Of a DNA stretch of 64,000 nucleotides, positions 7,605-28,550 are shown one piece after another. Location of the stretch: assembly GCA_002356515.1 (NCBI GenBank), contig AP017605.1, forward strand, positions 5,007,020 through 5,071,019, in the 5' to 3' direction. Numbering within the stretch: the first letter of the stretch is position 1; every line of letters starts with the position of its first letter. A model generated the notes under the pieces. That model made no database searches. It was not told the origin of the DNA and saw only the letters and a list, made by a program, of their open reading frames with translations. Origin of the DNA: Mesorhizobium loti (GTDB lineage: Bacteria; Pseudomonadota; Alphaproteobacteria; Rhizobiales; Rhizobiaceae). The position numbers and the translations under genes were made by a program.

Positions 7605-8000
7605 TTATTCCGGGATAACGGCGGTGGCCTGGATCTCCACCTTGGCGCGATCCTCGACCAGCGCCATCACCTGCATGGCGGCCATCGCCGGGAAATGCCG
7701 GCCGATCACCTCGCGATAGGCCTCGCCGATCCCCCTGAGATTGGCCAGATACTCGGCCTTGTCGGTGAAATACCAGGTCATCGAGGTGATGTGCTGCGGC
7801 ATGGCACCGGCCTCGGCCAGCACCGCGACGATGTTTTGCAGCGTCTGCCGCACCTGGCCGACAAAGTCGTCGGTTTCGAACCGGCACTGCCCGTTCCAGC
7901 CGACCTGTCCACCGACGAAGATGAGCCGCCCGCGTGCCGCGACACCATTGGCGTAGCCGACCGGTTTGGCCCAGCCTTCCGGCTGCAAAATCTCATGCAT
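7605..8000 (-). CDS. RidA/YjgF-family protein, divergent active site
   Basis: A 131-residue single-domain Rid protein, expected to be a cytoplasmic trimer. RidA itself hydrolyses reactive enamines/imines to ketones and ammonia. The FVGGQVGWNGQCRF strand and C-terminal KVEIQATAVIPE (with the conserved Glu) are present. The arginine that in canonical RidA follows FPA (FPAR) and binds the substrate carboxylate is Met here (FPAMAAMQV). That suggests a different substrate, for example an enamine on a CoA-thioester rather than 2-aminoacrylate. The start is supported by GGGAGG five bases upstream. It is probably the last gene of the minus-strand aromatic operon, 64 bp after the acyl-CoA dehydrogenase. 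Confidence 0.88.
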   Translation of the reverse strand: MHEILQPEGWAKPVGYANGVAARGRLIFVGGQVGWNGQCRFETDDFVGQVRQTLQNIVAVLAEAGAMPQHITSMTWYFTDKAEYLANLRGIGEAYREVIGRHFPAMAAMQVMALVEDRAKVEIQATAVIPE

Positions 8001-8064
8001 TCATGCCTCCCGGTATTTCCGCAAAACCAAGTCTCAAAATCGAATACTCTTCAATTTCCCGTCG

Positions 8065-9213
8065 TCAGGCCGCGCCCATCACTTGCCGCGCGATGACCAC
8101 CTTCTGCACGTCGGAAGCGCCCTCATAGATGCGCAGTGCTCGAATCTCGCGATACAGACTCTCGACGATGTGCCCCTTGCGCACACCGTCGCCGCCATGC
8201 AGTTGCACGGCCTTGTCGATCACCTCTTGCGCCTTGTCGGTGGCGAACAGCTTGGCCATCGCCGCCTCGCGGGTGACCCGCGCCGCACCCATGTCCTTGG
8301 TCCACGCGGCGCGGTAGACCAGCAGCGCGGCCGCATCGACGTCTAGCGCCATGTCGGCAATATGGCCTTGCACCATCTGCAGTTCGCCCATAGGCGCGCC
8401 GAACAGTTTGCGCTCTGCCACCCTCTTGATGCTTTCATCCAGCGCGCGGCGGGCAAAGCCAAGGGCTGCCGCACCAACGGTCGAGCGGAACACGTCGAGC
8501 ACCGACATGGCGATGCGAAAACCGTCGCCGGGCTTGCCGATCAGTGCGGCGGCCGGCAGGCGGACCTGGTCGAAGGACAGCCGCGCCAGCGGATGCGGCG
8601 CGATCACTTCGAGGCGTTCGGCGATGCCGAGGCCCTTGGCATCGCCCGGCACGATAAAGGCCGAGAGCCCCTTGGCGCCCGGTGCTTCGCCGGTGCGGGC
8701 AAAGACGATGTAGAGATCGGCAATGCCGCCATTGGAAATCCAGGTCTTTTCGCCGGTGAGCACATAAGCGTCACCGTCGCGGGTCGCCGTCATCTCGGTG
8801 TTGGCGACATCCGATCCCGAGCGCGGTTCCGACAGGGCGAAGGCCGAGATCGCCTTGCCGGCGCGGGTCTTGGTTAGCCACTGCTGCTGCTCCGCCGTGC
8901 CGAACAGGCTAAGCGCACCGGTGCCAAGCCCTTGCATGGCGAAAGCGAAATCGGCGAGACCGTCATGGCGCGCCAGCGTCTCGCGCGTGATGCACAAAGT
9001 GCGGACGTCGAGGGGGCCGGGATTGTCAGTGTCGACAGCTGTCGGTTTCAGCCAGCCGTCCTCCCCGAGTTTTTGCACCAGCTCGCGACAGGCGGCATCG
9101 ACGTTATGGTGATCGACGGGCAGGTTTTTCGCGCACCATGCTTCCAGGCTTTCGGCCAGCTCACGATGACGGTCTTCGAAGAACGGCCAGTTGAGGAAGG
9201 AACGGTCAGGCAT
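8065..9213 (-). CDS. Acyl-CoA dehydrogenase
   Basis: A 382-residue FAD flavoenzyme that introduces an alpha,beta double bond into an acyl-CoA. Visible motifs are [20 protein letters not shown] and [20 protein letters not shown] (FAD/acyl-CoA binding), and the C-terminal [10 protein letters not shown]...[16 protein letters not shown], where the glutamate of YEGAS is the expected catalytic base. I start at the ATG of [10 protein letters not shown], with GGAAGG eight bases upstream. The longer frame reads into the 9241-9404 inverted repeat and is not protein. Its place after the enoyl-CoA hydratase supports a beta-oxidation-like role on a ring-derived CoA ester. Confidence 0.93.
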
Positions 9214-9240
9214 GTTGGGAACCTTCCGCGTGCTGGTGCG

Positions 9241-9404
9241 AGGCACCCCCCTCTGTCCTGCCGGACCTCTCCCCCGCAAGGGGGGAGATTGGCAGTCTTG
9301 CCGACGGCCTCGACCTGGCAACGTTGGAGATAGGCGAAGACAGGACGTACAGCTGATCTCCCCCCTTGCGGGGGAGACGGCCGGCAGGCCAGAGGGGGGT
9401 GCCT
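9241..9404. repeat. Inverted-repeat element, copy A
   Basis: About 164 bp bounded by AGGCACCCCCCTCT and its exact complement AGAGGGGGGTGCCT. Each arm is roughly 50 bp and contains the CTGCCGG and CTCCCCC blocks; the unpaired centre is about 60 bp. It fills the gap between the acyl-CoA dehydrogenase and enoyl-CoA hydratase genes. Copies B (22526-22684) and C (43421-43580) have the same plan, so it is a dispersed, non-coding, possibly mobile small element. Confidence 0.85.
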
Positions 9405-9423
9405 GGGCGAAAACCGCTCATCC

Positions 9424-10236
9424 TCAATTCCCCTCGAACACCGGCTTTTCCTTGGCCACGAACGCCTTGTAGGCGCGCTCGAAATCGCGCGTCTGCATAC
9501 AGATCGCTTGCGCCTGCGCTTCCGCCTCGATCGCCTGGTCGAGACCCATCGACCATTCCTGGTTCAGCTGCGTCTTGGTGATGCCGTGCGCGAAGGTCGG
9601 GCCGGAGACGATGCGCGCCGCCATGTCGAGCGCGTCGGCTTCGAGTGCCGCCGCATCGACCAGCCTGTTGTAGAACCCCCAGCGCTCGCCTTCGGCTGCC
9701 GTCATGGTGCGGCCGGTGTAGAGCAGTTCGGCGGCGCGGCCCTGGCCGATGATGCGCGGCAGGATCGCGCAGGCGCCCATGTCGCAGCCGGCGAGGCCGA
9801 CGCGGGTGAACAGGAAGGCGGTCTTGGCTTCCGGCGTGGCGATACGGATGTCGGAACTCATGGCGATGATGGCACCGGCGCCGACCGCGACGCCATCGAC
9901 CGCGGCGATGATCGGTTTGCCGCAATTCAGCATCGCCTTGACGAAATCGCCGGTCATGCGGGTGAAGGCCAGAAGCTGCTTCATGTCCATCTTGACCAGC
10001 GGGCCGATAATGTCGTGGACATCGCCGCCGGAGCAGAAATTGCCGCCATTGGAGAGGAACACCACGGCGTCGACATCGTCGGCGTAGACGAGGTCGCGGA
10101 ATGTGTCGCGCAGTTCCGCATAGCTGTCGAAGGTCAGCGGGTTCTTGCGCTCCGGCCGGTCGAGCCGGACCTTGGCGATCCTGCCCTCGACCTCCCACAG
10201 GAAATGCTTCGGCTTGAGGTTGGCCATCGCGGTCAT
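9424..10236 (-). CDS. Enoyl-CoA hydratase/isomerase family protein
   Basis: A 270-residue crotonase-fold enzyme. The first oxyanion-hole segment [15 protein letters not shown] and the second, [20 protein letters not shown], are intact, followed by the [19 protein letters not shown] region. The family adds water to, isomerises or hydrolytically opens CoA esters. The catalytic Glu pair of classical hydratases is not obvious here, so ring hydrolysis or isomerisation is as likely as simple hydration. Its ATG overlaps the MarR stop by 4 bp, so translation is coupled within the aromatic operon. The acyl-CoA dehydrogenase follows after a 210-bp gap that holds repeat copy A. Confidence 0.9.
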
Positions 10237-10703
10237 TCGCGTCCCTCCCAGTTGCTGCGGAACGAGGTCAGCATGCCGGTCAGCCGGCGGGCATCCTCTT
10301 CGCTGACCTTGCCCAGCAATTCGCCGATCCAGCCCTCATGCGCCGCGGCGATGGTGGCAAAGGATTTGGTGCCTTCGTCGGTCAGTCGCACCATGGACGT
10401 GCGGCGGTCACCATTGCGGCGCGCGCGGGCGACCAGTCCCTCTGACACGAGCCGGTCGACAATGCCGGTGACATTGCCGTTGGAGACCAGCAGGAAACGC
10501 GACAGGTCGCTCATCAGCATGCCTTCCGGCACGCGGTAGAGTGCGGCCATCACATCGAAACGCGGCAGCGTCGTATCGAATTCTTTCTTCAAGCGTTCAC
10601 GCAGTTCGGCCTCGATCGTGCGCGAGGCGCGCAGCAGCCTGATCCACAGGCGCAGCCTGTCCTTGCCGGGTCCCGACGGCGCGGGCAGGGGGCCGGCTAC
10701 CAT
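10233..10703 (-). CDS. MarR-family transcriptional regulator
   Basis: A 156-residue winged-helix regulator. It has an N-terminal dimerisation helix ([18 protein letters not shown]), a recognition region ([27 protein letters not shown]) and the wing [16 protein letters not shown]. MarR proteins usually repress aromatic-compound operons and release DNA on binding the aromatic ligand or its CoA ester. The start has AGGAGG six bases upstream and overlaps the SDR stop (ATGGTAG); its stop overlaps the hydratase start. It therefore sits inside the operon it probably controls, giving autoregulation. The palindrome at 13819-13832 ahead of the first gene is its best candidate operator. Confidence 0.92.
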
Positions 10704-11470
10704 GTTTCGCCTCCTGAGATCGAAATTGCCTGTCCGGTGATCGATGCCGCCGCATCGCCGCACAGCCACAGCACGGCGGCGGCGACTTCCTGTGGCTGGA
10801 TGAAGCGGCCTTGCGGATTGGTCGAGGCAAGGCTCGCCCGCGCCTCACCGGCCGAGCGGCCGGTCTTTTCGACAATCCGCTGGATGGATTCTTCCAGCAT
10901 GTCGGTCTCGACGAAGCCCGGGCAGACCGCATTGACGGTCACGCCCGATTTCGCCGTCTCGGCGGCAAGCGCCCGCATCAGTCCGACGACGCCATGCTTG
11001 GCGGCCACGTAAGGCGCGACATAGGCGTAGCCCTTCAACCCAGCCGTGGAGGCGACGAATACGATCCGTCCCGATTTCCGCGCGGCCATGCCGGCCAGCG
11101 CCGGCTTCACCGTCAGGAAGGCTCCCGTCAAATTGACGTCGAGCGTCTTTTGCCAGTCGGCGAGCGTGGTCTTGTGCGTCGGCGTGCTGCCGGCCATGCC
11201 GGCATTGGCAATGACGATGTCGAAGGTCCCGCGCGCGGCTTGCGCCGTCTCATAGAGCGAGGCCATGGACGCCTCATTGGTAACATCGGCGGCGATGCCG
11301 AAAATGCCTTCGCTTTCGCCGGCCGTTTTTGCGAGTTCTGCTTCGCGGCGGCCGCAGATGGTCACATTGATGCCGGCGCCAGCCAATGCCAGTGCGATGG
11401 CCCGGCCGACGCCGGAGCCGCCACCGGTGACCAGCGCGTGCTTGCCGGAGATCGCTGTTGCGGCCGTCAT
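10697..11470 (-). CDS. Short-chain dehydrogenase/reductase (3-hydroxyacyl type)
   Basis: A 257-residue classical SDR. It has the cofactor motif [12 protein letters not shown], an NAG motif ([10 protein letters not shown]), the catalytic serine in [11 protein letters not shown] and the YVAAK Tyr-Lys pair. It resembles 3-hydroxybutyrate and 3-hydroxyacyl-CoA dehydrogenases. In this operon the expected step is NAD(P)-dependent oxidation of a ring hydroxyacyl-CoA. The ATG overlaps the stop of the large monooxygenase gene (ATGA) and its own stop overlaps the MarR start, so the four genes from 13761 to 9424 are tightly coupled. The longer frame to 11548 overlaps the upstream gene and is rejected. 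Confidence 0.92.
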
Positions 11471-13761
11471 ACTTTCAGCCCCGCGGCGGCATCGCGCTCG
11501 GCCAGCCGGTAGATCTGGTCGCGCCCGGGCAGATAGGGATCCGGCCATTTGACGCCGCGGTCGCCAAGCGTCACCGCCGCATGCAGCGTCCAGTAGGGAT
11601 CGGCAAGATGTGGCCGTGCCAGTGCCACCAGGTCGGCGCGGCCGGCCATCAGGATCGAATTGACATGGTCCGGCTCATAGATGTTGCCGACCGCCATCGT
11701 CGCCATGCCGACCTCGTTGCGGATGCGGTCGGAAAACGGCGTCTGGAACATGCGGCCGTACACCGGCTTCGCCTGCGCCGAAGTTTGCCCTGCCGAGACG
11801 TCGCAGATGTCGACGCCGGCCTCATGCAGCAGCTTTGCGATCTCCACCGCGTCGGCGGGTGTGACGCCTTCGATGCCGACCCAGTCATTGGCCGAAATGC
11901 GCATCGAGATCGGCTTCTCCGCCGGCCATGCGGCGCGCACCGCATGGAAGATTTCGAGGGGATAGCGCATGCGGTTCTCAAGCGAACCGCCGTAGTCATC
12001 CGTGCGCCGGTTGGTGACCGGCGTGATGAAGGACGATAGGAGATAGCCATGCGCGGCGTGGATCTCGAGCATGTCGAAGCCGCAACGGTCAGCCATCTCG
12101 GCCGAGGCCACGAACTGCTCGCGCACCAGATCCATGTCGGCGCGGTCCATCGCCTTCGGCACCTGGTTTTCAGGCGACCATGCGACAGACGATGCCGCCA
12201 TCACAGGCCAGTTGCCCGAGGCCAGCGGCACGTCGGTGCCTTCCCAGCCGAGCCGGGTCGAGCCCTTGGCGCCGGAATGGCCGATCTGGGCGCAGATCTT
12301 TGCCTCGGTCTCGGCATGGACGAAATCGACCAGCCGCCTCCACGCCACCTCGTGTTCAGGCGCGTAGAAGCCGGGGCAACCGGGCGTGATGCGCCCTTCC
12401 GGGCTGACGCAGGTCATCTCGATATAAACGAGGCCGGCGCCGCCCTTGGCGCGCTCGGCATAGTGGGTGAAATGCCAGTCGGTCGGACAGCCGTCGACGG
12501 CCTTGTACTGCGCCATCGGCGAGACGACGACGCGGTTGTTGAGCTTCATGTCGCGCAGCTTGAACGGCGCGAACATCGGCGCACGGCGCAGCCTGTTGCC
12601 GCCGGCGCCCGCCTGGCGCTGGAACCATTCTTCGGCGCCGCCCAGCCACTCGGCATCGCGCAGCCGCAGATTCTCGTGGCTGATGCGCTGCGAGCGGGTC
12701 AGCAGCGAATAGTTGAACTGCACAGGATCAAGACCAAGATAGCGTTCGACCTCCTCGAACCATTCCAGCGAATTGCGGGCCGCCGACTGCAGCTTCAGCA
12801 CCTCGGTGCGGCGCGCGTCCTCATATCTACGGAAGGCTGCATCGAGGTCCGGCTCGGTCTCGACATACTCGGCCAGCGCCACCGCGCTCTCCAAAGCGAG
12901 CTTGGTGCCGGAGCCGATCGAGAAATGCGCCGATGCCGCCGCGTCGCCCATCAGCGCCAGGTTCTTGTAGGACCAGCGTTCGCACAGCACGCGCGGGAAA
13001 TTGATCCAGGCCGAACCCCTGATGTGGTTGGCATTGGTCATCAGCGCATGGCCGCCGAGATGCTTGGCGAAAATGCGCTCGCACACCGCGATCGATTCCT
13101 GCTGCGTCATCGCGCCGAAGCCGAAGGCAGCCCAGGTCTGTTCGCTGCATTCGACGATGAAAGTCGCGGTCTCGCTGTCGAACTGGTAGGCGTGCGCCCA
13201 CACCCAGCCATGCTCGGTCTTCTCGAAGATGAAGGTGAAGGCGTCGTCGAATTTCTGGTTGGTGCCCAGCCAGACGAACTTGCATTTGCGCGTATCGATG
13301 TCGGGCTTGAAGATGTCGACGAAGGTATTGCGCGCCCTGGAATTCAGTCCGTCGGCGGCGACGACGAGGTCATGCGTCTCCATGTACGGACGGGGATCGG
13401 CGATATCGGTCTCGAACATCAGCTTGACGCCGAGCTCGCGGGCGCGGCGTTGCAGCAGGATCAGCAGCCGCTTGCGGCCGATGCCGCAGAAGCCATGGCC
13501 TGACGAGACCGTGCGCACGCCGTCATGGATGACGGCGATGTCGTCCCAATAGGCAAAATGCTTCTTGATCCAGACGGCGCTGACCGGATCGTTTTTGGCG
13601 AGATTTTCGAGTGTTTCGGCCGACAGCACGACGCCCCAGCCGAACGTGTCGTCGGCGCGGTTGCGCTCGAACACCGTCACATCGTGCGCGGCGTCCCTGA
13701 GCTTCATCGAAATGGCAAAGTAGAGGCCGGCTGGTCCGCCGCCGAGAACCGCAACCTTCAT
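11467..13761 (-). CDS. Bifunctional aromatic acyl-CoA monooxygenase/reductase (2-aminobenzoyl-CoA or salicylyl-CoA type)
   Basis: A 764-residue fusion. Residues 1 to about 380 are an FAD aromatic hydroxylase, with [16 protein letters not shown] at the N-terminus and the second FAD motif [19 protein letters not shown]. From about residue 392 it is an Old Yellow Enzyme-type NADH:flavin oxidoreductase ([59 protein letters not shown]). This architecture is that of 2-aminobenzoyl-CoA monooxygenase/reductase of Azoarcus evansii, which hydroxylates and then reduces the ring, and of proteins annotated as bifunctional salicylyl-CoA 5-hydroxylase. The start is the ATG of MKVAVLGGG behind GAGGAG. It is first in its operon, 58 bp downstream of a palindromic operator. 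The choice of aromatic CoA substrate is open. Confidence 0.9.
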
Positions 13762-13818
13762 CCGTGCGATCTCCTCTTCGCTTGCTGTCTCGTCCAGTAT
13801 CGCGCTGGCGGCAAGATA

Positions 13819-13832
13819 TTTCAAGCTTAAAG
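13819..13832. promoter_or_regulatory. Palindromic operator candidate, copy 3
   Basis: TTTCAAGCTTAAAG lies 58 bp upstream of the monooxygenase/reductase start, where an operator for the aromatic operon is expected. It matches TTTnAAGCTTnAAA except for the last base. Confidence 0.58.
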
Positions 13833-13897
13833 TTTTATATCGAAATCATTGTGCGGACATCGGCAGCGCGCTTGCGTGTCGCCCCGCAAGCGCGCGC

Positions 13898-13947
13898 TAG
13901 AGCAATTCCAGGAAAAGTGTGAACGGTTTTCCGTCCGGAATTGCGTC
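13898..13947. repeat. Small dispersed intergenic repeat
   Basis: The stretch beginning CTAGAGCAATTCC with inner arms GGAAAA...TTTTCC and GGAATTG at the end is an imperfect inverted repeat of a type common between genes in rhizobial chromosomes. It abuts the perfect hairpin at 13958-14004 and shares the CTAGAGCA motif with it. Confidence 0.6.
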
Positions 13948-13957
13948 AAAACAAAAG

Positions 13958-14004
13958 AGCTAGAGCAGTCCACCGTTTCCGTGAAACGGTGGACTGCTCT
14001 AGCT
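13958..14004 (-). terminator. Perfect 22-bp stem-loop after the VOC gene
   Basis: Arms 13958-13979 and 13983-14004 pair over 22 bases without mismatch, with a 3-nt loop (CGT). It begins 2 bp beyond the VOC gene stop and could terminate that transcript, although no clear T-run follows. It may equally be a repeat element of the CTAGAGCA family. Confidence 0.6.
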
Positions 14005-14006
14005 GA

Positions 14007-14606
14007 TCACTTTTCCGGGTTCTTCGGGCTCCACAGCACCGTCTCGGCACTCTTCTCATAGGCCATGCCGTCGGGATAGCTGATCGCTTCCAGTTGCAAG
14101 CCCCACGGCGCCTGGAAGTAGAGAATGGTCTGGCCGGCGGCGGGGCCTTCCTTGACCGGCAAAGGCCCCATGCGCGTCTTGACGCCCTTGCCGTCGAGAT
14201 AGGCTTTGGCGGCGGCGACATCGTCGACATAGAGGGCGATGTGGAATCCGCCAATGTCGCTGTTCTTCGGCGTCAAATCCTTCTGGTCGGGCGCGGTGTA
14301 TTTGAACAGCTCGATGTTCGATCCATAGCCGCAACGCACCATCGTGACCTGCTCGATGACCGCCTTGGGATCGACGCCCAGCAGATCCTGCATGAAGGTG
14401 CCTTTGTCGTCGGCGAACGGGCCGAACGACATCGCCTTTTTGCAGCCGACCACCTCGGTGAAGAAGTCGACCGCCTGCTTCATGTCGGGAACCGTGATGC
14501 CGGTATGGTCGTGGCCGCGCATGCCGGGGATTGAATCCGCCGAGGCCATGCCGACACTGCCAAGGACAGCGGCGGCGAGCGTTGCATTTCGAAGTATCGT
14601 CTTCAT
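14007..14606 (-). CDS. Exported VOC (glyoxalase/bleomycin-resistance) family protein
   Basis: A 199-residue protein. It starts with a clear signal peptide (MKTILRNATLAAAVLGSVGMASADS, listed here only as residues 1-25), followed by one VOC domain: HDHTGITVPDMKQAVDFFTEV, CGYGSNIELFKYT and GGFHIALYVDDVAAAKAYLD. The His and Glu positions expected for metal binding are present. VOC enzymes include ring-cleavage dioxygenases, isomerases and resistance proteins; most are cytoplasmic, so export is unusual. GAGAGGA precedes the start. It stands alone between the aromatic operon and the Dpp-type ABC operon on the same strand. Its function is unknown. Confidence 0.85.
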   Translation of the reverse strand: MKTILRNATLAAAVLGSVGMASADSIPGMRGHDHTGITVPDMKQAVDFFTEVVGCKKAMSFGPFADDKGTFMQDLLGVDPKAVIEQVTMVRCGYGSNIELFKYTAPDQKDLTPKNSDIGGFHIALYVDDVAAAKAYLDGKGVKTRMGPLPVKEGPAAGQTILYFQAPWGLQLEAISYPDGMAYEKSAETVLWSPKNPEK

Positions 14607-18230: not shown

Positions 18231-18273
18231 GTAAATCTTTGCAGGAGCCCGCAGGCTCGTATGCCGCAGAAAT

Positions 18274-18299
18274 GCGCGCCGTCGCTCTGGACGGCGCGC
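18274..18299 (-). other. Intercistronic stem-loop between binding protein and permease
   Basis: GCGCGCCGTC and GACGGCGCGC form a perfect 10-bp stem with a 6-nt loop, 19 bp past the binding-protein stop. Its position matches that of the hairpin at 3272-3303 in the amino-acid transporter operon. It is probably an mRNA stabiliser or partial terminator that keeps binding protein in excess. Confidence 0.6.
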
Positions 18300-18317
18300 G
18301 GCAAGTCCAGGCCGATA

Positions 18318-19958: not shown

Positions 19959-21533
19959 CTACCTCCCGCCAAGCTGTTGCGCGAGCATGAAACCCGAGGC
20001 CGCACCGGTGCCGGCGCCTGGCCATGTCGCGGCTCCCGTGAGATGCAGATTGGCCACCGGCGTGTTCCAGCCGGCATAGCCGCGCGCCGGGCGAAACAAA
20101 AAGTTCTGCGCCAGATGGTGGCTGCCGCACACCTGGTCGCCGCCGACCAGATTCGGGTTCTCGCGCTCGAGATCGATGGGCGAGAACACCGAACGGCCGA
20201 GGATTTTGCTCCGCAGGCCGGGTGCATAGGTCTCGATGATGTCGAGCACGCGCTCGGCGTAGGCGTCCTTAACCTGATCCCAATGCGCGGGCACGATCTT
20301 GGCCGACGCATCGCCCAGGATCTCGGCAGGCAGCATCCGCACCTGCACCCACAGCACATGCTTGCCCTGCGGCGCGCGCGACGGATCGATCGCTGAGGGT
20401 TGGCCGACGACCAGCACCGGTTCGTCCGGCAGCATGCCGGCCATCGCCTGCTGATAGATGCGCGACATGGCGTCGAGCGACGGTGACAGATGCACATAAG
20501 CGAACTGCCGCAACTCGGCCCCGGCGCGCCAGTCCGGCAGGTCGTCCAGCGCCAGGTGGATCATCATCGTGCCTGGCGCATGGCGGAATTTCTGCATTGC
20601 CGTGTCGAAGCCGGCATTGCCGGAACCGCCGGGCAGCAGCTTGCTGGCCAGCGCCTTGGGCGCGACACCGGCGATGACCGCCTTGGTCGCTGTATGCGTC
20701 TCGCCGGAGGCGAGCCGAACACCGGTCGCCTTGCCGGCGGAAACGGTGATCTCGGCCACCTCGGCGCCAGTGACGATCTTGCCGCCGGCCGACGTGACCA
20801 TGCCGGCCAGCGCCCGGATGATGGTATCGGCGCCGCCTTTGCCCAGCACCATGCCGAAACTCTGGTTGGCCATCGATTCCAGATAGGGGAACACTGCGCC
20901 GCCAGCGATGTCGGGCGCGAAGTCGAGATGCATGCCCCAGGTGGCGAGGGTCGCCCGCACATGGGGCGACTCGAAAGTCTCCTCCAGCCAGGCGCGGGGC
21001 GACGACAGCAGCAGCCGGCCGGTGTCGAGCGCGCCGGCAACCCCCTTCTTGCGCCACAGGTTCCACGCCGTGCCGGCAAGCGCACGGGCGCTCATCGGCG
21101 AGCCCAGCAGCCGGAACAGATGCTCGGCCTCGGCCGGGAAGGCGGCAACCAGCCTGCGCCATGCCGCGGCGTCCGCAGCGGAGAAGGCAGCCATGCGCGT
21201 GGCGGTTTTTTCCAGGTCGTTGCTGACGCCGAACCAGCGTCCGTCCGGAAAGGCGCTGGCGAAACAGTCGGCGACCGGTGCGAATTCCAGCCCCTGTGCT
21301 TTCAATTCATTTGCATATTTCTGGTGGAAGGCCGAGCCGGCAAACAGGCTCAGATTCATCGCGCCGAAATCGTGACGGAAGCCGGGAAGGGTGAATTCGC
21401 GGGTCTGCACGGCGCCGCCGATTGTTGCGCTGCGCTCGAAAATCCCGGTTTTCCAGCCTTTGAGCGCCAGATGCGCGGCGCATGCCAGACTGTTGTGGCC
21501 CGCCCCGACAAAGATGGCGTCGAACTCGCTCAC
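19959..21533 (-). CDS. FAD/NAD(P)-dependent oxidoreductase, phytoene-desaturase/amine-oxidase-like (paralogue 1)
   Basis: A 524-residue flavoprotein. It has the dinucleotide motif FDAIFVGAGHNSLACAAHLA, a glutamate-ending second strand (GIFERSATIGGAVQTRE) and a C-terminal FAD segment (GAATWPGAGTGAASGFMLAQ). The start is GTG. It is divergent from the cyclase gene; the 119-bp gap has a copy of the locus palindrome. A homologue of the same length lies on the other side of the cyclase (22744-24315). The superfamily desaturates or oxidises carbon-carbon and carbon-nitrogen bonds, so oxidation of an indolic ring is possible. Carotenoid synthesis is unlikely, as no crt genes are near. Confidence 0.83.
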   Translation of the reverse strand: MSEFDAIFVGAGHNSLACAAHLALKGWKTGIFERSATIGGAVQTREFTLPGFRHDFGAMNLSLFAGSAFHQKYANELKAQGLEFAPVADCFASAFPDGRWFGVSNDLEKTATRMAAFSAADAAAWRRLVAAFPAEAEHLFRLLGSPMSARALAGTAWNLWRKKGVAGALDTGRLLLSSPRAWLEETFESPHVRATLATWGMHLDFAPDIAGGAVFPYLESMANQSFGMVLGKGGADTIIRALAGMVTSAGGKIVTGAEVAEITVSAGKATGVRLASGETHTATKAVIAGVAPKALASKLLPGGSGNAGFDTAMQKFRHAPGTMMIHLALDDLPDWRAGAELRQFAYVHLSPSLDAMSRIYQQAMAGMLPDEPVLVVGQPSAIDPSRAPQGKHVLWVQVRMLPAEILGDASAKIVPAHWDQVKDAYAERVLDIIETYAPGLRSKILGRSVFSPIDLERENPNLVGGDQVCGSHHLAQNFLFRPARGYAGWNTPVANLHLTGAATWPGAGTGAASGFMLAQQLGGR

Positions 21534-21549
21534 GCCCCGTTCCCATTTC

Positions 21550-21563: not shown

Positions 21564-21652
21564 ATAATTGCAGATGCATATGTTTTCGTCTAGTAGGATA
21601 TTAAGGGCCGAGACGAGCCTCGATCATCATCGACAAAGAGGGAACAGAGACC

Positions 21653-22444
21653 ATGGACACCCAAAAACTCCTCGGCGAAGTCGCCGGCCAGCTACTGTCA
21701 GGCGCCATCAAGGTGGTTGACCTCTCGGCACAGCTCGGGCCGGACACGCCGCTGATCAAGCTGCCGCCGGAACTCGCCGTCGACACGCCGAAGGTCGAGA
21801 TCCACTCGATCTCCCGTTATGACAAGAATGGTCCGTGGTGGGCGTGGAACTGGCTGAAGCTCGGCGAGCATTCGGGCACGCATTTCGATGCACCGCAGCA
21901 CTGGATCACCGGCAAGGATTATCCGGACGGCGCCACCGACACCATTCCGGCGCAGAATTTCGTTGGCCCGGTCAATGTCATCGACTGCTCCAAGGAAGCC
22001 GCCGCCGACCACGATTTCCTGCTCACCGTCGACCACATCAAGGCGTGGGAAGCCAAGCATGGCGCCATCAACCCGGGCGAATGGGTGGTGATGCGCACCG
22101 ACTGGTACAAGCGCAACGGTTCGGAGGCTGAATTCCTCAACGCCAACGAGACCGGCCCGCATACGCCCGGCCCGACGGCCGAAGCCATCCAGTATCTGAT
22201 AGCCAAGGACATCAAGGGCTGGGGCTCGGAGACGATCGGCACCGATGCCGGCAAGGCCGGCGGCATGGAGCCGCCATTCCCGGCGCACACGCTGATGCAC
22301 AAGGCCAACCGCTACGGTCTCGCCAGCCTCTGCAACCTCGACCAGCTGCCGCCGAAGGGTGCCATCCTGATCGCGGCACCGCTCAAGATCGAGCACGGCA
22401 CCGGCAGCCCGATCCGCGCGCTGGCGCTGGTGTCGGGGCAGTAA
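21653..22444 (+). CDS. Cyclase-family metal-dependent hydrolase (kynurenine formamidase/isatin hydrolase-like)
   Basis: A 263-residue member of the cyclase family. The metal-binding signature GEHSGTHFDAPQHW is intact (residues about 70-83), and a later segment PFPAHTLMHKANRYG carries further histidines. Known members open amide or lactam bonds with a divalent metal, including kynurenine formamidase and isatin hydrolase. Beside a 2-aminobenzoyl-CoA-type enzyme and IorAB, both roles make sense, since kynurenine formamidase leads towards anthranilate and isatin hydrolase gives isatinate. I favour the latter because a 2-oxoacid oxidoreductase follows downstream. It is flanked by two FAD oxidoreductase paralogues. 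Confidence 0.87.
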   Translation: MDTQKLLGEVAGQLLSGAIKVVDLSAQLGPDTPLIKLPPELAVDTPKVEIHSISRYDKNGPWWAWNWLKLGEHSGTHFDAPQHWITGKDYPDGATDTIPAQNFVGPVNVIDCSKEAAADHDFLLTVDHIKAWEAKHGAINPGEWVVMRTDWYKRNGSEAEFLNANETGPHTPGPTAEAIQYLIAKDIKGWGSETIGTDAGKAGGMEPPFPAHTLMHKANRYGLASLCNLDQLPPKGAILIAAPLKIEHGTGSPIRALALVSGQ

Positions 22445-22525
22445 GGAGATCTTCGGGAGAAGATCATGCAGGTTGGCGATGGAGTGATGATGGGTGACGG
22501 GTGGCAGCCTTGCAGCGCTGGCGCT

Positions 22526-22684
22526 CACCCCCCTCTGTCCTGCCGGACATCTCCCCCTCAAGGGAGGAGATTGGCAGCTTCCGCGCCCTGCTCATTCTCG
22601 CGACTTTGGCGATTGGCGAAAGCCATCGCGACATCCGATCTCCCCCCTAGAGGGGGAGATGTCCGGCAGGACAGAAGGGGGCGC
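22526..22684. repeat. Inverted-repeat element, copy B
   Basis: The arms contain CTCTGTCCTGCCGGACATCT and its complement with the CTCCCCCTCAAGGG / TAGAGGGGGAG inner parts. Outer matches (AGCGCT) extend to about 22514 and 22695. It fills the 299-bp gap between the cyclase and the second FAD oxidoreductase; nothing else was seen in that gap. Confidence 0.85.
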
Positions 22685-22743
22685 CGTAGAGCGCTAACCT
22701 ATGCGCCTGAACGTCACTTCGCGACGACCGAGGGCATTCCCCA

Positions 22744-24315
22744 ATGACCGCCCCCGATCACATCATCGTCGGCAGCGGCATCAACGCGCTGGTCTGCGCG
22801 GCGATGCTTGGCGGCAAGGGTGCGAAGGTGCTCGTGCTGGAGCGCAATGACCGCATCGGCGGCTGCATGCGCACCGAGGAGATCACCGCACCCGGCTTCA
22901 TCCATGATGTGATGGCGACGACCTTCGTGCTGTTCATCACCTCGCCGGCCTTTGCCGCATTGGGCGGCGACCTTGCCCGGCACGGGCTGGAGTTCTGCCA
23001 CACCGGCACGCCGACCGGCGTGCTGCGGCCGGACGGCCGCCATGCCGTGCTCACCACCAGCCGCGCCGCCAATGTCGCCGCCCTCAATGCGATCGCGGCG
23101 GGTGATGGCGACCGGCACGCGGATGATGTCGGCGGCATCGAGCGCAATGCCGGCCTGCTGTTCGGCCTGCTCGGCGGCGCGCTGTGGTCCTATCCGACGG
23201 CCAAGCTGCTGGCCGGCGACGCCTGGCGGCGAAGCCCGCGTGGCCTTGCCGCCTTTCTCGGCGAAGCGCTGGCGCCGGCGCGCGGCTGGCTGGAAAGTAC
23301 CTACCAGTCCGAAACCATCCGGGCGCTCTGGGCGCCCTGGGTACTGCATGCCGGGCTAGGCCCCGAGGATGCGTTCTCCGGCCAGATCGCCAAGGTGATT
23401 GCCTTCGCGCTGGAGGCCGCAGGCGCCCCGATCGTCAAGGGCGGGGCGAAGAACCTGTTGGCGGCCTTCGAGGCATTGATCACCGAGCGCGGTGGCGTCA
23501 TCTCCACGGGAGCGGACGTTGCTTCCATCATCCTGGATGGGGGCCGCGCCACCGGCGTGCGGCTGGCCTCGGGCGAAACGGTTCATGCGAAGAAGAGCGT
23601 GATCTGTTCGGTCACGCCGACGCAGCTTTATGGCCGGCTGCTGGGCAGCGAGGCGCCCAAAGCCGATATCGAGGCGACGCGGCAATATCGCTACGGCAAG
23701 GGCAATTTCCAGATCCACTATGCCTTGGACAAATCGCCGGCATGGCGCGGCGAAGGTCTGGACAAGGTGGCGCTGCTGCATCTGACGCCGGGGCTCGATG
23801 GCGTGTCGAAGGCCTGCAACGAGGCGGCACGCGGCATGCTGCCGGAAGTGCCGACCATTTGCGTCGGCCAGCCGCATGCGCTCGACCCGTCACGCTGTCC
23901 GGAAGGCAAGGCGATCCTGTGGCTGCAACTGCCCGAGGCGCCGCGCCACATCAAGGGCGATGCCACCGGCAAACTGCAGGCACCGGCTGACGGGCAGTGG
24001 ACAGACGCGCTGCGCGAGGCCTACGCCGACCGGGCCGAAGCGATCCTTGCCAACCATATCGACGGCTTCAAGGACAGCGTCATTGCGCGCCGCGCCTATT
24101 CGCCGGCCGATCTCGAAGCGATGAACATCAATCTGGTCGGCGGCGACCCCTATGGCGGCTCGTCGACCATCGACCAGGCCTTCCTGTGGCGGCCGTTCAA
24201 GACCAGCCGCAACCACCAGACCGGTATCAAAAACCTCTACCATATCGGCGCCTCCACCCATCCTGGCGCGGGTCTCGGCGGCGGTTCCGGCTTCCTCCTG
24301 GCGGGGAGGCTGTGA
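22744..24315 (+). CDS. FAD/NAD(P)-dependent oxidoreductase, phytoene-desaturase/amine-oxidase-like (paralogue 2)
   Basis: A 523-residue flavoprotein with PDHIIVGSGINALVCAAMLG at the N-terminus, VLVLERNDRIGGCMRTEE and the C-terminal YHIGASTHPGAGLGGGSGFL. It shares overall layout with the protein at 19959-21533, including GFIHD/GFRHD after the first domain and VGQPHALDPSRCPEGK versus VGQPSAIDPSRAPQGK, so the two are paralogues that could form a heteromer or act on successive intermediates. Its stop overlaps the following MarR start (TGATG), so the two are coupled. The substrate is unknown. Confidence 0.85.
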   Translation: MTAPDHIIVGSGINALVCAAMLGGKGAKVLVLERNDRIGGCMRTEEITAPGFIHDVMATTFVLFITSPAFAALGGDLARHGLEFCHTGTPTGVLRPDGRHAVLTTSRAANVAALNAIAAGDGDRHADDVGGIERNAGLLFGLLGGALWSYPTAKLLAGDAWRRSPRGLAAFLGEALAPARGWLESTYQSETIRALWAPWVLHAGLGPEDAFSGQIAKVIAFALEAAGAPIVKGGAKNLLAAFEALITERGGVISTGADVASIILDGGRATGVRLASGETVHAKKSVICSVTPTQLYGRLLGSEAPKADIEATRQYRYGKGNFQIHYALDKSPAWRGEGLDKVALLHLTPGLDGVSKACNEAARGMLPEVPTICVGQPHALDPSRCPEGKAILWLQLPEAPRHIKGDATGKLQAPADGQWTDALREAYADRAEAILANHIDGFKDSVIARRAYSPADLEAMNINLVGGDPYGGSSTIDQAFLWRPFKTSRNHQTGIKNLYHIGASTHPGAGLGGGSGFLLAGRL

Positions 24316-24797
24316 TGGAACAGAAGGTCGGAGAAAAACGCCAGCGCATTTCGACGCTCGGCCAGATCGGCCTGCAGCAATTCGCGCCCTATCTGATGAA
24401 CCGCATCATGGGTCGCTACAACGCCACCTTGCGCGACGATTTCCGCAAGCAGGGCCTGACCATTCCGCAGGTGCGCACACTTGCCGTGCTGTCGGTCACC
24501 GACGGCGTCACCGTCAACGACCTCTCGGTCTACACGGTCATTGAGCAGTCGACCTTGAGCCGCACGCTCGACACGCTGGAGGGGCAAGGCTTCGTGCGGC
24601 GCGAGCAGGGCGTCACCGACAGCCGCATCCGCCATGTCTTCCTCACCGACGAGGGCCGCGCCGAGTTCACTCGCGCCTGGCCGGCCATGCACGACGCGTT
24701 CGAGGCGATGTTCGACGATATCGACGATACCGAATATGCGGCACTGATCGCCACGCTTTTGAAGATGCTGAAAAACATTCGCAAGCACGACATCTAG
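24315..24797 (+). CDS. MarR-family transcriptional regulator (second)
   Basis: A 160-residue winged-helix protein. It has an N-terminal helix ending LMNRIMGRYNATLRDDF, the recognition helices VNDLSVYTVIEQSTLSRTLD and the wing EQGVTDSRIRHVFLTDEG. The true start is the ATG overlapping the FAD oxidoreductase stop, with GGGGAGG just upstream; an in-frame extension over 300 bp into the FAD gene is spurious. It precedes iorA by 44 bp in the same direction. Together with the MarR protein at 10.2-10.7 kb it gives the locus two related regulators, possibly one sensing a substrate and the other a CoA intermediate. Confidence 0.92.
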   Translation: MEQKVGEKRQRISTLGQIGLQQFAPYLMNRIMGRYNATLRDDFRKQGLTIPQVRTLAVLSVTDGVTVNDLSVYTVIEQSTLSRTLDTLEGQGFVRREQGVTDSRIRHVFLTDEGRAEFTRAWPAMHDAFEAMFDDIDDTEYAALIATLLKMLKNIRKHDI

Positions 24798-24841
24798 ATG
24801 TACGCGCCGCCGACCAGCGGCGGCAACGGAAGGAGGCAGAG

Positions 24842-26995
24842 ATGGCCGAACGGTCTTTTGCCAAGGAAGTCGAAAAACTGAGGCTCGGCGCCGGCGAGGA
24901 GTTTGCCGGCGAGGGCATCCTCGCCATCACCAAGGCGCTGCTGCAATGCGGCGTCGGCTATGTCGGCGGCTATCAGGGCGCGCCGATCAGCCATCTGATG
25001 GACGTGCTGGCCGACGCGCAGGACATTCTGGGCGAGCTCGGCGTGCATTTCGAGGCAAGCGCCTCGGAAGCCACCGCCACCGCCATGCTGGCCGCCTCGG
25101 TGCATTATCCCATTCGCGGTGCGGCCACCTTCAAGTCGACCGTCGGCACCAATGTCGCCTCCGATGCGCTGGCCAACCTCGCCTCCGGCGGCGTCACCGG
25201 CGGCGCGTTGATCATCGTCGGCGAGGATTATGGCGAGGGCTCCTCGATCATGCAGGAGCGCAGCCATGCCTTTGCCATGAAGAGCCAGGTCTGGCTGCTC
25301 GACCCGCGCCCGAACCTGCCGTCCATCGTCAAGGCTGTGGAAGACGGCTTCGAACTCTCCGAAATCTCCAATACGCCGGTCATGCTGCAAGTGCGCATCC
25401 GCTGCTGCCATGTGCACGGCCATTTCATCGCCAAGGACAACAAGCGCCCGCCGATGACGGTGGCCGATGCGCTGGAAGCCCCGCGCCGCGACACCGGCCG
25501 CATCGTGCTGCCACCGGCCTCGTTCCTACATGAGAAGGAGAAGGTGGCGAAGCGCTGGCCGGCGGCGGTCGACTTCATCCGAAAGAACAAGATCAACGAA
25601 TTCTTCGGCTCGGACCACGGCTCGGTCGGCATCGTCATGCAGGGCGGCATGTACAATTCCGTCATCCGCGCCTTGCAGCGGCTCGGCCTTGCCGACACTT
25701 ATGGCGAGACCGATGTGCCGCTCTACGTGCTCAACGCCGTCTATCCCTTGATCGACGATGAGTTCCTGTCCTTCTGCGAAGGCAAGCAGGCGGTGCTGGT
25801 CGTCGAGGAAGGCCAGCCCAACTACATCGAACAGGCCTTTGCCGCGATGCTGCACAAGGCCGGGCGTGGCACCCGATTGGTCGGCAAGGAATATCTGCCG
25901 ATGGCCGGCGAATATACCGGCCAAGTGATGCTCGACGGCATCGGTACCTTCCTGCGCGCCGAGGCGCCGCATCTCTTGCCGGGCGAAGTGCGCGCGCCCA
26001 ACAAGGTCGGCGACGGCGTCGATACAGCCGACCTGATCAACGTCGTGCCGGGCCGCCCGCCGGGCTTCTGCATCGGCTGTCCGGAACGGCCGATCTTCGC
26101 CGCGACGAAGCTGGTCGAGCAGGAACTCGGCAAGCACCATATCGCCTCCGACATCGGCTGCCATTTGTTCTCGATCATGCCGCCCTTCGAACTCGGCGCC
26201 ACCACCATGGGCTACGGTCTCGGCCCGGCCTCGGCCTCGGCGTTCAATTCGCCAGACGCCAAGCGCCGCTCGATCTCCTTCGTCGGCGATGGCGGCTTCT
26301 GGCACAACGGTCTGACCTCCTCGATCGGCAATGCCGTGTTCAACAAGAATGACGGCGTCATCGTCATTGTCGACAATTTTTACTCCGCCGCCACCGGCGG
26401 GCAGGACATCCTGTCGTCGCGCGCGGGCAACAAGACCAAGTCGACCAAGCATCCGATCACCGAGGCGGTGAAGGGCATGGGCGTGAAATGGCTGCGCCAT
26501 GTCGACCGCACCTACGATGTCGGCAAGATGCAGGACACGCTGCGCGAGGCGCTGACGACCGAGGAAAAGGGGCCGAAGGTCATCGTCGCCTCGTCCGAAT
26601 GCATGCTGAACCGGCAGCGCCGCGAAAAGCCGCTGGTCGACAAGGCGATCAAGGGGGGGACAAGGGTCGTTAAACCGAAATTCGGCGTCGACGAGGACAT
26701 CTGCACCGGCGACCATGCCTGCATGCGGCTGTCCGGTTGCCCGTCGCTGTCGGTCAAGTCGCTCGACGATCCGCTGCGCGACGATCCTGTGGCATCGATC
26801 GACCAGAGCTGCGTCGGCTGCGGCAATTGCGGGGAGGTGGCGGACGCCGCCGTGCTCTGCCCGTCCTTCTACCGCGCCGACGTCGTCCACAATCCGAACC
26901 GCTGGGACAGGTTTCTGGAAAGCGCGCGCCGCGCCACCATCGGCCTTCTGCAGCGCCGCCGCGAAAGCCGGCGCCTGACCTTCGCTGATGCTTGA
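24842..26995 (+). CDS. iorA: Indolepyruvate:ferredoxin oxidoreductase-type alpha subunit
   Basis: A 717-residue thiamine-diphosphate 2-oxoacid oxidoreductase subunit. The N-terminal pyrimidine-binding domain includes YVGGYQGAPISHLMDVL. The TPP/Mg site is GDGGFWHNGLTSSIGNAVFN...VDNF. A C-terminal ferredoxin region has one normal 4Fe-4S motif (CVGCGNCGE...CP) and one atypical one (CTGDHACMRLSGCP), which lacks the usual CxxC. The family oxidatively decarboxylates aryl 2-oxoacids to acyl-CoA. In this locus, 2-aminophenylglyoxylate (isatinate) would give 2-aminobenzoyl-CoA; that is inference. It is 44 bp after the MarR gene and overlaps iorB by 8 bp. Confidence 0.88.
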   Translation: MAERSFAKEVEKLRLGAGEEFAGEGILAITKALLQCGVGYVGGYQGAPISHLMDVLADAQDILGELGVHFEASASEATATAMLAASVHYPIRGAATFKSTVGTNVASDALANLASGGVTGGALIIVGEDYGEGSSIMQERSHAFAMKSQVWLLDPRPNLPSIVKAVEDGFELSEISNTPVMLQVRIRCCHVHGHFIAKDNKRPPMTVADALEAPRRDTGRIVLPPASFLHEKEKVAKRWPAAVDFIRKNKINEFFGSDHGSVGIVMQGGMYNSVIRALQRLGLADTYGETDVPLYVLNAVYPLIDDEFLSFCEGKQAVLVVEEGQPNYIEQAFAAMLHKAGRGTRLVGKEYLPMAGEYTGQVMLDGIGTFLRAEAPHLLPGEVRAPNKVGDGVDTADLINVVPGRPPGFCIGCPERPIFAATKLVEQELGKHHIASDIGCHLFSIMPPFELGATTMGYGLGPASASAFNSPDAKRRSISFVGDGGFWHNGLTSSIGNAVFNKNDGVIVIVDNFYSAATGGQDILSSRAGNKTKSTKHPITEAVKGMGVKWLRHVDRTYDVGKMQDTLREALTTEEKGPKVIVASSECMLNRQRREKPLVDKAIKGGTRVVKPKFGVDEDICTGDHACMRLSGCPSLSVKSLDDPLRDDPVASIDQSCVGCGNCGEVADAAVLCPSFYRADVVHNPNRWDRFLESARRATIGLLQRRRESRRLTFADA

Positions 26996-28550
26996 CGCTG
27001 TCCCCCCACTCCGCGCCAAGGCCGGCGCCCAGGATGACGAGCGTGTCATCAAGCTCGCCGTGCTGGCGGTCGGCGGCCAGGGTGGCGGCGTGCTGGCCGA
27101 CTGGATCACCGATGTGGCCGAGCGCAATGGCTACGTCGCGCAATCGACCTCGGTCGCCGGCGTCGCCCAGCGCACCGGCGCCACGATCTATTACATCGAG
27201 ATGGCCCGTGACACCGGCCGGCTGCCGGTCTTCGCGCTGTCGCCCTCGCAAGGCGATGTCGACATACTGATCGCGGCGGAACTGATGGAAGCCGGCCGCG
27301 CCATCATCCGTGGTTTCGTCACACCCGAGCGCACCACGCTGATTGCCTCCTCGCATCGCATCGCTGCCGTGTCGGAGAAGATCGAACCGGGCGACGGCCG
27401 GGCCTCGTCTTCCAAGGTGCACGCGACTGCGGAAGCCGCATCCAAGCGCTTCATCGCTTTCGACATGGAAAAGATCGCCGCCGACAACGGTTCGATGATC
27501 TCGGCCAGCCTGCTTGGCGCGCTGGCGGGGTCGGACGCGCTGCCGTTCACGCGCGAAAGCTATGAACAGGCGATTGGCGCCGGGGGCCGTGGCGTCAAGG
27601 CGAGCCTTGCCGCCTTTGGCGCCGCGTATGACCGCGCGCGCGGCACGGCCGCGCCGGCGTCAAAGCCGGCGGAGCCGGCGATTGTCGAATCGGCACTGGG
27701 CGCAGGGCGCGTCACCGGCCCGCAAAACCTGCTGCAAGGCTGGCAGGCGCTGGCGGCGCGTGTCGACGCATTGCCGGAGCCGGTGCGCGACATGGCGCTT
27801 CGTGGGTTACGAAAGGTCGTCGATTATCAGGACATCGCCTATGGGCGGGAGTATCTCGACCGGCTGGACAAGGCCGTCGCGCTGGATGGCACCGAGCATG
27901 CCCATGCGCTGTCGATCGCCGCCGCCAAGCATCTGGCCAACGCGCTCTGCTATGACGACATGATCCGCGTTGCCGATCTCAAGACGCGCTCGACGCGCGA
28001 CAGGCGTGTGCGCAAGGAGGTCGGTGTCAAGGATGGCTCGATCCTGCAGGTGACCGAATATTTCCATCCGCGCATCGAGGAGTTCTGCGGCACGCTGCCG
28101 GCGGGGCTCGGCAGCTATATCGAGAGCCGGCCGAAACTCGCCGCCTTCCTCGACCGCCGCATCAACCATGGCCGCCGTATCCGCACCGACAGCTTCGCCG
28201 GCTTCGCCGCTTTGTGGTTCATCGGCGGCCTGCGCCGCTGGCGCCGCGGCCTGCTGCGCCACCAGGTCGAGATGACCCATCTCGATCGCTGGTACGCATT
28301 GGCGCTCAGCCACGCGCCCCAGGACTATGCGCTCGCCGTCGAAATCCTCAACTGCCGCCGGCTGATCAAGGGCTACAGCGACACCCATGTCCGCGCCCAG
28401 TCGAAATTCGACCGCGTGCTGTCGGCGCTTCCCATGCTCAAGGGCCGCGACGATGCCGCCGACTGGATCCGCCGCCTGCGCGAGGCGGCGCTGAAGGACG
28501 AGAAGGGCGACATGCTCGACGGCGCGCTGAAGACCGTGGCGACGCTCTAA
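26988..28550 (+). CDS. iorB: Indolepyruvate oxidoreductase-type beta subunit with C-terminal extension
   Basis: A 520-residue protein. The N-terminal ~200 residues are the gamma/beta-type domain of 2-oxoacid oxidoreductases (LAVGGQGGGVLADWITDVAE, STSVAGVAQRTGATIYYIEM). The remaining ~300 residues form an extra helical domain (from about LGAGRVTGPQNLLQGWQAL) ending KTVATL. Classical archaeal IorB is about 200 residues, so this is the long form seen in aerobic proteobacteria. The start codon lies inside the end of iorA, so expression is coupled. The extension's role is unknown; it may replace an electron-transfer partner or stabilise the complex in air. Confidence 0.86.
   Translation: MLDAVPPLRAKAGAQDDERVIKLAVLAVGGQGGGVLADWITDVAERNGYVAQSTSVAGVAQRTGATIYYIEMARDTGRLPVFALSPSQGDVDILIAAELMEAGRAIIRGFVTPERTTLIASSHRIAAVSEKIEPGDGRASSSKVHATAEAASKRFIAFDMEKIAADNGSMISASLLGALAGSDALPFTRESYEQAIGAGGRGVKASLAAFGAAYDRARGTAAPASKPAEPAIVESALGAGRVTGPQNLLQGWQALAARVDALPEPVRDMALRGLRKVVDYQDIAYGREYLDRLDKAVALDGTEHAHALSIAAAKHLANALCYDDMIRVADLKTRSTRDRRVRKEVGVKDGSILQVTEYFHPRIEEFCGTLPAGLGSYIESRPKLAAFLDRRINHGRRIRTDSFAGFAALWFIGGLRRWRRGLLRHQVEMTHLDRWYALALSHAPQDYALAVEILNCRRLIKGYSDTHVRAQSKFDRVLSALPMLKGRDDAADWIRRLREAALKDEKGDMLDGALKTVATL

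Follow-up and report, generated by a model that had tools for sequence, protein, structure and literature searches.

Gene content of the locus

Positions 7605–28550 of a 64,000-nucleotide stretch of Mesorhizobium loti DNA (contig AP017605.1; hereafter the window, part of an 8.45 Mb genome) carry genes for a putative isatin hydrolase (IH), a two-gene 2-oxoacid oxidoreductase (IorAB) and a fusion enzyme of the 2-aminobenzoyl-CoA monooxygenase/reductase type (ACMR), the joint role of which is considered here. An open-reading-frame (ORF) scan resolves this interval into two opposed gene blocks. On the minus strand lie the ACMR operon (ACMR–SDR–MarR–ECH–ACAD–RidA, running from 13761 to 7605), a VOC gene, five genes for an Opp-type importer, and the flavoprotein gene FAD1; on the plus strand lie IH, FAD2, a second MarR gene, IorA and IorB. 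The genes named by the first-pass annotation of this DNA are all present, but it had overlooked FAD1, FAD2, the importer (14684–19847, minus strand) and the second MarR gene (24312–24797, plus strand). Gene starts were adjusted after reading of the sequence, and the closest named database relatives of the window IorA and IH belong to Mesorhizobium. The features are as follows.

7605–8000, minus: RidA-family protein of the ACMR operon (PF01042, 71.6 bits)
8065–9213, minus: acyl-CoA dehydrogenase, ACAD (PF00441/PF02770/PF02771; start placed at an internal ATG)
9424–10236, minus: enoyl-CoA hydratase family protein, ECH (NF006107, 481.4 bits; cut-off 330)
10233–10703, minus: MarR regulator of the ACMR operon (PF12802; nearest PDB entry 3boq, E 1.6e-24)
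10697–11470, minus: SDR dehydrogenase, beta-oxidation type (PF00106/PF13561)
11467–13761, minus: ACMR, 2-aminobenzoyl-CoA monooxygenase/reductase-type fusion of FAD monooxygenase and old yellow enzyme (OYE) (NF006101, 1264.6 bits; cut-off 1078)
14007–14606, minus: VOC/glyoxalase-fold protein with, by eye, a signal-peptide-like N terminus (PF00903)
14684–15520, minus: Opp-type ABC ATPase, OppF-like (profile matches)
15513–16391, minus: Opp-type ABC ATPase, OppD-like (profile matches)
16388–17257, minus: Opp-type permease, OppC-like (PF00528, PF12911)
17223–18230, minus: Opp-type permease, OppB-like (PF00528, PF19300)
18318–19847, minus: family 5 substrate-binding protein (PF00496, 256 bits; PDB 5u4o, E 2.7e-38)
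19959–21533, minus: FAD1, CrtI/CrtO-like flavin oxidoreductase, divergent from IH (profile matches)
21653–22444, plus: putative isatin hydrolase, cyclase family (LaIHB 4j0n, 182/259 identical; signature motifs)
22744–24315, plus: FAD2, CrtI/CrtO-like flavin oxidoreductase (profile matches)
24312–24797, plus: second MarR regulator, between FAD2 and IorA (PF12802; PDB 3cjn, E 3.9e-42; 7kym, E 2.6e-22)
24842–26995, plus: IorA, alpha subunit with thiamine pyrophosphate (TPP) and Fe–S domains, proposed isatinate:ferredoxin oxidoreductase (TIGR03336, 272.6 bits; PF02775)
26988–28550, plus: IorB, POR domain and DUF6537 (NF006179, 712.3 bits; cut-off 348; PF01558, PF20169)
28826–32245: acyl-ACP ligase/acyltransferase, next gene past IorB (PRK06814), not an aryl-CoA ligase
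4207–5478: aminotransferase, outside the interval
5594–6406, minus: HpcH/HpaI aldolase, beside the locus

Identity of the hydrolase, the oxidoreductase and the fusion enzyme

Isatin is a breakdown product of indole and of the plant hormone auxin. The first-pass annotation had placed the cyclase-family hydrolase in the isatin hydrolase/kynurenine formamidase type, and the isatin hydrolase reading is borne out by comparison with LaIHB (PDB 4j0n), to which the window protein is identical at 182 of 259 residues (70%; E 9.5e-128). As given in excerpts of PMC6117287, the isatin hydrolase signature consists of the metal motif HxG[T/A]HxDxPxH, an aromatic pocket of the form WxW/FxW, and GLQC or GLAS; the window protein has HSGTHFDAPQH, a tryptophan pocket (WAWNW) and GLAS. 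Judged by sequence, the cyclase is an isatin hydrolase. As a protein it is essentially no different from LaIHB and LaIHA, sharing the identity to LaIHB and the signature motifs, and the novelty of the locus lies in the partner enzymes.

An IorAB-type 2-oxoacid oxidoreductase had also been called at the locus and is confirmed, IorB matching NF006179 with 712.3 bits. The composition that defines the IOR superfamily, an alpha subunit with TPP and Fe–S domains and a POR-domain partner, is found here, with PF02775 and PF01558 both above their cut-offs. The match of IorA to PF13237 (E 0.00068) lies below the cut-off of that family; the cysteine motifs are visible by eye. A PDB search with IorA at E 0.001 returned zero sequence relatives.

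The 2-aminobenzoyl-CoA-type enzyme and accompanying beta-oxidation enzymes of the first-pass annotation likewise stand. ACMR, the sole full-length match of its kind in the host genome, aligns to NF006101 across residues 22–781 and shows the FAD monooxygenase–OYE fusion. NCBI names that family salicylyl-CoA 5-hydroxylase/oxidoreductase; from its operon content, we take the window protein to be related to the 2-aminobenzoyl-CoA monooxygenase/reductase of Azoarcus evansii. The aerobic 2-aminobenzoate (anthranilate) pathway of that organism, as summarized in the excerpted part of a review (PMC4539516), employs a monooxygenase/reductase whose substrate is 2-aminobenzoyl-CoA and then enzymes of beta-oxidation. 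The window locus resembles it in having an ACMR-type enzyme and beta-oxidation genes, but differs in lacking a ligase and in carrying IH and IorAB. Many ACMR-type loci elsewhere group ACMR, SDR, MarR, ECH, ACAD, an AMP-ligase and RidA.

IH and IorAB occur together across genomes

We compared the best 80 of 380 confirmed IH loci, nearly all from Mesorhizobium, and retained the 69 that span at least 17 kb (11 shorter ones were left out). IH, FAD1, FAD2, IorA, IorB and the Opp genes are present in all 69 and ACMR in 68; the contig of genome G051 stops at ACMR. Because IH, FAD2, IorA and IorB are kept in 69/69 of these loci and ACMR in 68/69, the grouping is not a matter of chance.

A broader sample comprised 398 Pseudomonadota genomes, in which IH was counted at ≥50% identity (cyclase matches below this, in 18 of 43 genomes, were left out) and IorB as a full-length match at ≥45%. 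The latter threshold set aside partial matches in G019 (C3), G205, G319 (second copy) and G333, and full-length matches below 45% in G139, G191, G231, G019 (two) and G379 (second copy). Of the genomes with such distant IorB relatives, G139, G191, G231 and G019 gave no IH match at E 1e-20. IH is present in 25 genomes and IorB in 24, with an overlap of 23; G327 and G237 have IH without IorB. ACMR occurs in 23/23 of the genomes with both, against 70/398 overall. At the genus level, with p-values that ignore phylogeny, IH is found in 13 of 14 IorB genera (p 7.6e-18) and ACMR in 13/13 (p 2.7e-10), compared with 44/212 genera.

The two genes also lie close together. Of the 23 genomes, 16 have IorB and IH no more than 5 kb apart (63 bp in G376 and 160 bp in G322); the distance is 7 kb in G379 and 19–29 kb in G200, G217 and G111, and in G225, G296 and G319 they are on different contigs. 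At least 32 of 44 IorB plasmids also carry IH. Sulfitobacter indolifex has a bare IH–MarR–IorA–IorB module, and in Paracoccus saliphilus the same module stands beside an iad-like cluster of Rieske oxygenase, AMP-ligase, thiolase, SDR and cyclase genes. The P. saliphilus plasmid locus (L250, 2345–19069) has two IH-type cyclase genes, one in the Rieske/ligase/thiolase cluster and one in the four-gene module.

The surroundings of the pair vary. Alloyangia pacifica groups genes for an indole monooxygenase, ACMR, RidA, IH, a FAD2 relative, MarR and IorAB; the 32 kb examined there gave no match to a ligase. In G225 and G296, IH accompanies an indole-monooxygenase relative and a FAD2 relative, and IorAB is on other contigs, 511 and 591 bp from ACMR. 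G379, G111, G217 and G200 have IorAB with a Rieske gene, in an iad-like arrangement. The IH–IorAB pair thus goes with three upstream modules (indole monooxygenase, Rieske iad-like, and FAD1/FAD2/Opp), the common denominator of which is isatin. Since the upstream genes change while IH and IorAB stay, isatinate is indicated as the IorAB substrate. Degraders of indole and of auxin alike would seem to use this pair. As a separate observation, FAD2 relatives also adjoin IH in L136 and L139, two loci with an indole-monooxygenase relative.

An ACMR tree was built by a quick method from 74 rows, including the window and two of six other window-type genomes; rows L162–L167 came from a targeted look at plasmids, and two of these, Alloyangia and La6, were picked for carrying IH. 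IorAB linkage changes five times on the best tree, and linked and unlinked loci differ in five independent pairs on starred branches. One of the lineages (Alloyangia/La6) comes from the targeted look, and gain and loss are indistinguishable.

A CoA ligase is absent from the locus and present elsewhere

The first-pass annotation had read the locus as lacking an aryl-CoA ligase. This holds for the locus: no AMP-ligase is found among the scanned ORFs of 7605–28550, and the only nearby candidate is the acyl-ACP ligase/acyltransferase past IorB. It does not extend to the host genome, for which absence of an aryl-CoA ligase was rejected: at G000:C1:534731-536341, 4.5 Mb from the locus and next to kynA and kynU, there is a relative (82% identity) of the ligase from the Phyllobacterium ACMR operon. 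It most likely acts on anthranilate derived from tryptophan, and there are therefore two inlets rather than one ligase bypass, the IorAB route being a second inlet beside the kynurenine-linked ligase.

Among the 69 long loci, none (0/69) has a match of ≥42% identity to five ACMR-locus ligases (tblastn), and in 12 the acyl-ACP ligase type alone was matched, at 25–30%, as in the window. A motif scan found no ligase in these loci either, a weak test in that the window's own acyl-ACP ligase escapes it. The loci span 10 kb on each side of IH and mostly end inside ACMR, leaving the ACAD–RidA junction outside them; this junction is ligase-free in the window and in G274, G071, G123, G171 and G055.

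To the 64 ACMR loci of the sample, which do not include the seven window-type Mesorhizobium genomes and G265, we applied a flank requirement that removed seven with a flank <5 kb. Thresholds of ≥42% identity and ≥250 bits defined a local ligase; they also admit a second type, present in G392 and G111. Of the remaining 57 loci, 46 have the ligase only, 3 IorAB only, 2 both and 6 neither; G331 is tallied as ligase-only, its IorAB lying beyond the fetched piece, and was set to 'both' for the ACMR tree. Strict mutual exclusion of ligase and IorAB was rejected, as both are present in G331, G194 and G197. In the seven window-type genomes and G265, IorAB is near ACMR and the ligase is on another contig, far off or, in G055, not found. 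kynA or kynU occurs in 13/48 ligase-bearing loci with full flanks versus 0/9 ligase-free ones. This linkage suggests that the ligase is tied to tryptophan-derived anthranilate and, because 13 of the 48 carry kynA or kynU, that ACMR handles the anthranilate (aminobenzoyl) thioester. Another AMP-ligase type was seen near IH in L125, L131 and L135 (G392, G217 and G111), and near ACMR too in L125 and L135.

Relation to auxin-degradation loci

Auxin induces Bradyrhizobium iorA 30.7-fold and iorB 7.6-fold, and the excerpted text (PMC3788728) does not settle on a role for either gene. Excerpts of PMC9613470 present iadA/iadB as exclusive markers of iad-like loci and have the pathway end at anthranilate. 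In Variovorax, strong build-up of C7H7NO and C8H7NO3 was confined to strains overexpressing iadC-K2, according to the portions of PMC12633357 available. By our own calculation these formulas correspond to 2-aminobenzaldehyde (C7H7NO) and isatinate (C8H7NO3), names not applied to them in those portions, and the C8H7NO3 build-up reported there fits a missing isatinate consumer.

The first-pass annotation had suggested kinship with MarR-controlled auxin-degradation loci, which is correct in part. The window locus has the iad marker IorAB (IadAB), and with the iad loci of Variovorax, Bradyrhizobium and Achromobacter, as far as the excerpts describe them, it shares IorAB, a cyclase-type hydrolase gene and MarR control; in the iad-like loci compared here the cyclase is an IH by motif. 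By contrast, no Rieske gene (IadDE) is found among the scanned ORFs of 7605–28550, and the three Rieske (PF00848) hits of the host genome all lie outside the locus. The window locus also lacks the thiolase and the IadF-type ligase, and instead has FAD1/FAD2 and the Opp importer, with the ACMR operon in the same block.

A proposed route from isatin to 2-aminobenzoyl-CoA

From gene content and order, we propose that the locus probably couples isatin catabolism to an aminobenzoyl-CoA operon, with IH acting before IorAB and ACMR after both. Isatin hydrolase would convert isatin to isatinate (2-aminophenylglyoxylate, a 2-oxoacid), a step for which the 70% identity and full motifs argue strongly. 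IorAB would then perform the key step, the oxidative decarboxylation of isatinate to 2-aminobenzoyl-CoA and CO2, with CoA as co-substrate and ferredoxin, for example, as electron acceptor. On the model of the A. evansii pathway, the ACMR fusion would hydroxylate the thioester and dearomatise it; processing of the ring would fall to the SDR, the hydratase, the dehydrogenase and the RidA-like protein. FAD1/FAD2 and the Opp importer would act upstream, supplying isatin from some substrate, and the ligase beside kynA/kynU would form a parallel inlet for tryptophan-derived anthranilate.

Gene linkage, co-occurrence and the published induction and metabolite data make the sequence isatin, isatinate, 2-aminobenzoyl-CoA, ACMR the best-supported reading, one that we hold to be likely. 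The first-pass proposal that isatinate passes directly to 2-aminobenzoyl-CoA and is then dearomatised is kept on this evidence, but its single bypass becomes two inlets. We lean slightly towards the wider view that iorAB/iadAB encode a new enzyme, isatinate:ferredoxin oxidoreductase (2-aminobenzoyl-CoA-forming), and that this enzyme is the common exit of bacterial isatin metabolism, whether it starts from indole, auxin or another indolic compound; anthranilate in the iad pathway would then be an overflow or side product and 2-aminobenzoyl-CoA the true product. No link between IorAB and isatinate was found in the excerpts of openly licensed literature searched.

Several observations weigh against this route. 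IorA scores 272.6 bits against TIGR03336, below the IOR_alpha equivalog cut-off of 650.9, which makes it kin of that family without classing it as that enzyme. G262 has IorB without a true IH. In the five independent pairs of the ACMR tree, IorAB linkage accompanies absence of a local ligase in 3.9 of 5 on average and the reverse never occurs, but the sign test is not significant (median p 0.125), the pairs being too few. In G331, which has a window-like layout, the ligase, kynU and kynA lie within the ACMR operon. In G327, IH and ACMR are 154 bp apart, a ligase is nearby and the genome gives no IorB match at E 1e-40, and in G392 and G111 the other-type ligase is near IH and ACMR, though both genomes possess IorAB; in these three, isatinate may reach ACMR without IorAB, by a ligase-dependent isatin route beside the proposed one. 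The C8H7NO3 build-up could come from overexpression alone. Furthermore, a Variovorax locus deletion carrying only iadC-K2 has anthranilate fully restored (excerpts of PMC12633357); this strain, by gene names, is without iadAB, so IadAB is not needed for anthranilate there.

The last result also favours an alternative in which isatinate gives free anthranilate, spontaneously or by another enzyme, the AMP-ligase beside kynA/kynU then makes 2-aminobenzoyl-CoA, and IorAB has some other or accessory role. The means are at hand in the host genome, which has the 82%-identical ligase; a ligase relative at E ≤ 1e-90 is found in 19/23 genomes with IH, IorB and ACMR, including the window's own, and the free-anthranilate route is therefore available to them, a further point against the IorAB route. 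The published iad pathways end in anthranilate (excerpts of PMC9613470 and PMC12633357), and G327 unites IH, ACMR and the ligase without an IorB match. Nevertheless, 4 of the 23 (G055, G376, G349 and G296) show no relative of the ACMR-operon ligase at that threshold, though another ligase could still act. The placement of IorB within 5 kb of IH in 16/23 genomes and the four-gene modules also speak against this alternative, and the literature, in the parts retrieved, names no isatinate-to-anthranilate enzyme. We consider this alternative unlikely, if the most serious of the three weighed here.

Family names, and the aminotransferase gene at 4207–5478, would be expected if IorAB were a true indolepyruvate (arylpyruvate) oxidoreductase making indoleacetyl-CoA upstream of auxin breakdown. 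The score of IorA below the equivalog cut-off tells against this as well, and the aminotransferase has no match among the matches listed for loci L121–L149. Alloyangia IorAB sits with IH and ACMR beside an indole monooxygenase and no annotated Rieske gene, and IorAB adjoins ACMR in G225 and G296; we regard the indolepyruvate role as improbable. A ring substrate of salicylyl-CoA, with 2-hydroxyphenylglyoxylate as the 2-oxoacid, would agree with the name of NF006101, but is very hard to square with the IH signature of the cyclase, the kynA/kynU genes in 13/48 ligase-bearing ACMR loci, the RidA-like gene in the operon and the carbon–nitrogen hydrolase downstream of ACMR in G225 and G296.

The chemistry proposed for IorAB has a precedent in phenylglyoxylate:acceptor oxidoreductase, a multi-subunit, anaerobic enzyme that converts phenylglyoxylate to benzoyl-CoA: in both, an aryl 2-oxoacid yields an aroyl-CoA and CO2. 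The window enzyme differs in being a two-gene IOR type with DUF6537, beside oxygen-dependent genes. The iaa pathway of Aromatoleum, with highly divergent iaa genes, likewise takes an indolic compound (auxin) to 2-aminobenzoyl-CoA, but is anaerobic and not an isatin route (excerpts of PMC9613470). If the IorAB route is correct, iadA/iadB, for which those excerpts state no reaction, would acquire a function, and aerobic degradation of auxin and indole would gain its missing link from isatinate to central metabolism. The ATP of a CoA ligase would be saved, iad metabolomics would be read differently, and a clear biochemical test would be provided.

RidA-like proteins, regulators and other features

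The RidA-family proteins of ACMR-type loci have Met at the FPAM column in 58/58 rows (the window protein, 7605–8000, plus 57 relatives chosen by similarity to it, some from the same genomes). Classical RidA has a catalytic Arg at this column; because Met replaces it, the role of these proteins may not be plain imine hydrolysis.

In L211 (5606–16973, minus strand, G225) and L216 (4954–15391, minus strand, G296), ACMR adjoins IorAB and is followed by double cupin, FAA hydrolase and carbon–nitrogen hydrolase genes, which looks like a different downstream route, predicted to run via 5-hydroxyanthranilate and maleamate. L216 in addition ends with an arylmalonate-decarboxylase-family gene and carries a thioesterase gene that separates IorB from ACMR, so that IorA–IorB–thioesterase–ACMR lie on a single strand with short gaps.

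The first MarR (10233–10703) was considered as an auxin-type IadR and rejected, its best PDB match being 3boq (E 1.6e-24) and the auxin MarR 7kfo scoring merely 1.9e-6. A search of the intergenic regions of the locus gave no convincing shared operator. The gaps at 22445–22743 and 13762–14006 both contain hairpin-like inverted repeats, for example TGTCCTGCCGGACA paired with TGTCCGGCAGGACA, which are perhaps small mobile repeats. The VOC-fold protein (14007–14606) has a match of >60% identity in 61/69 long loci and adjoins IorA in L123 and L126. In three diverged loci (L124, L128 and L138), relatives of the HpcH/HpaI aldolase (5594–6406) occur close to IH or IorAB.

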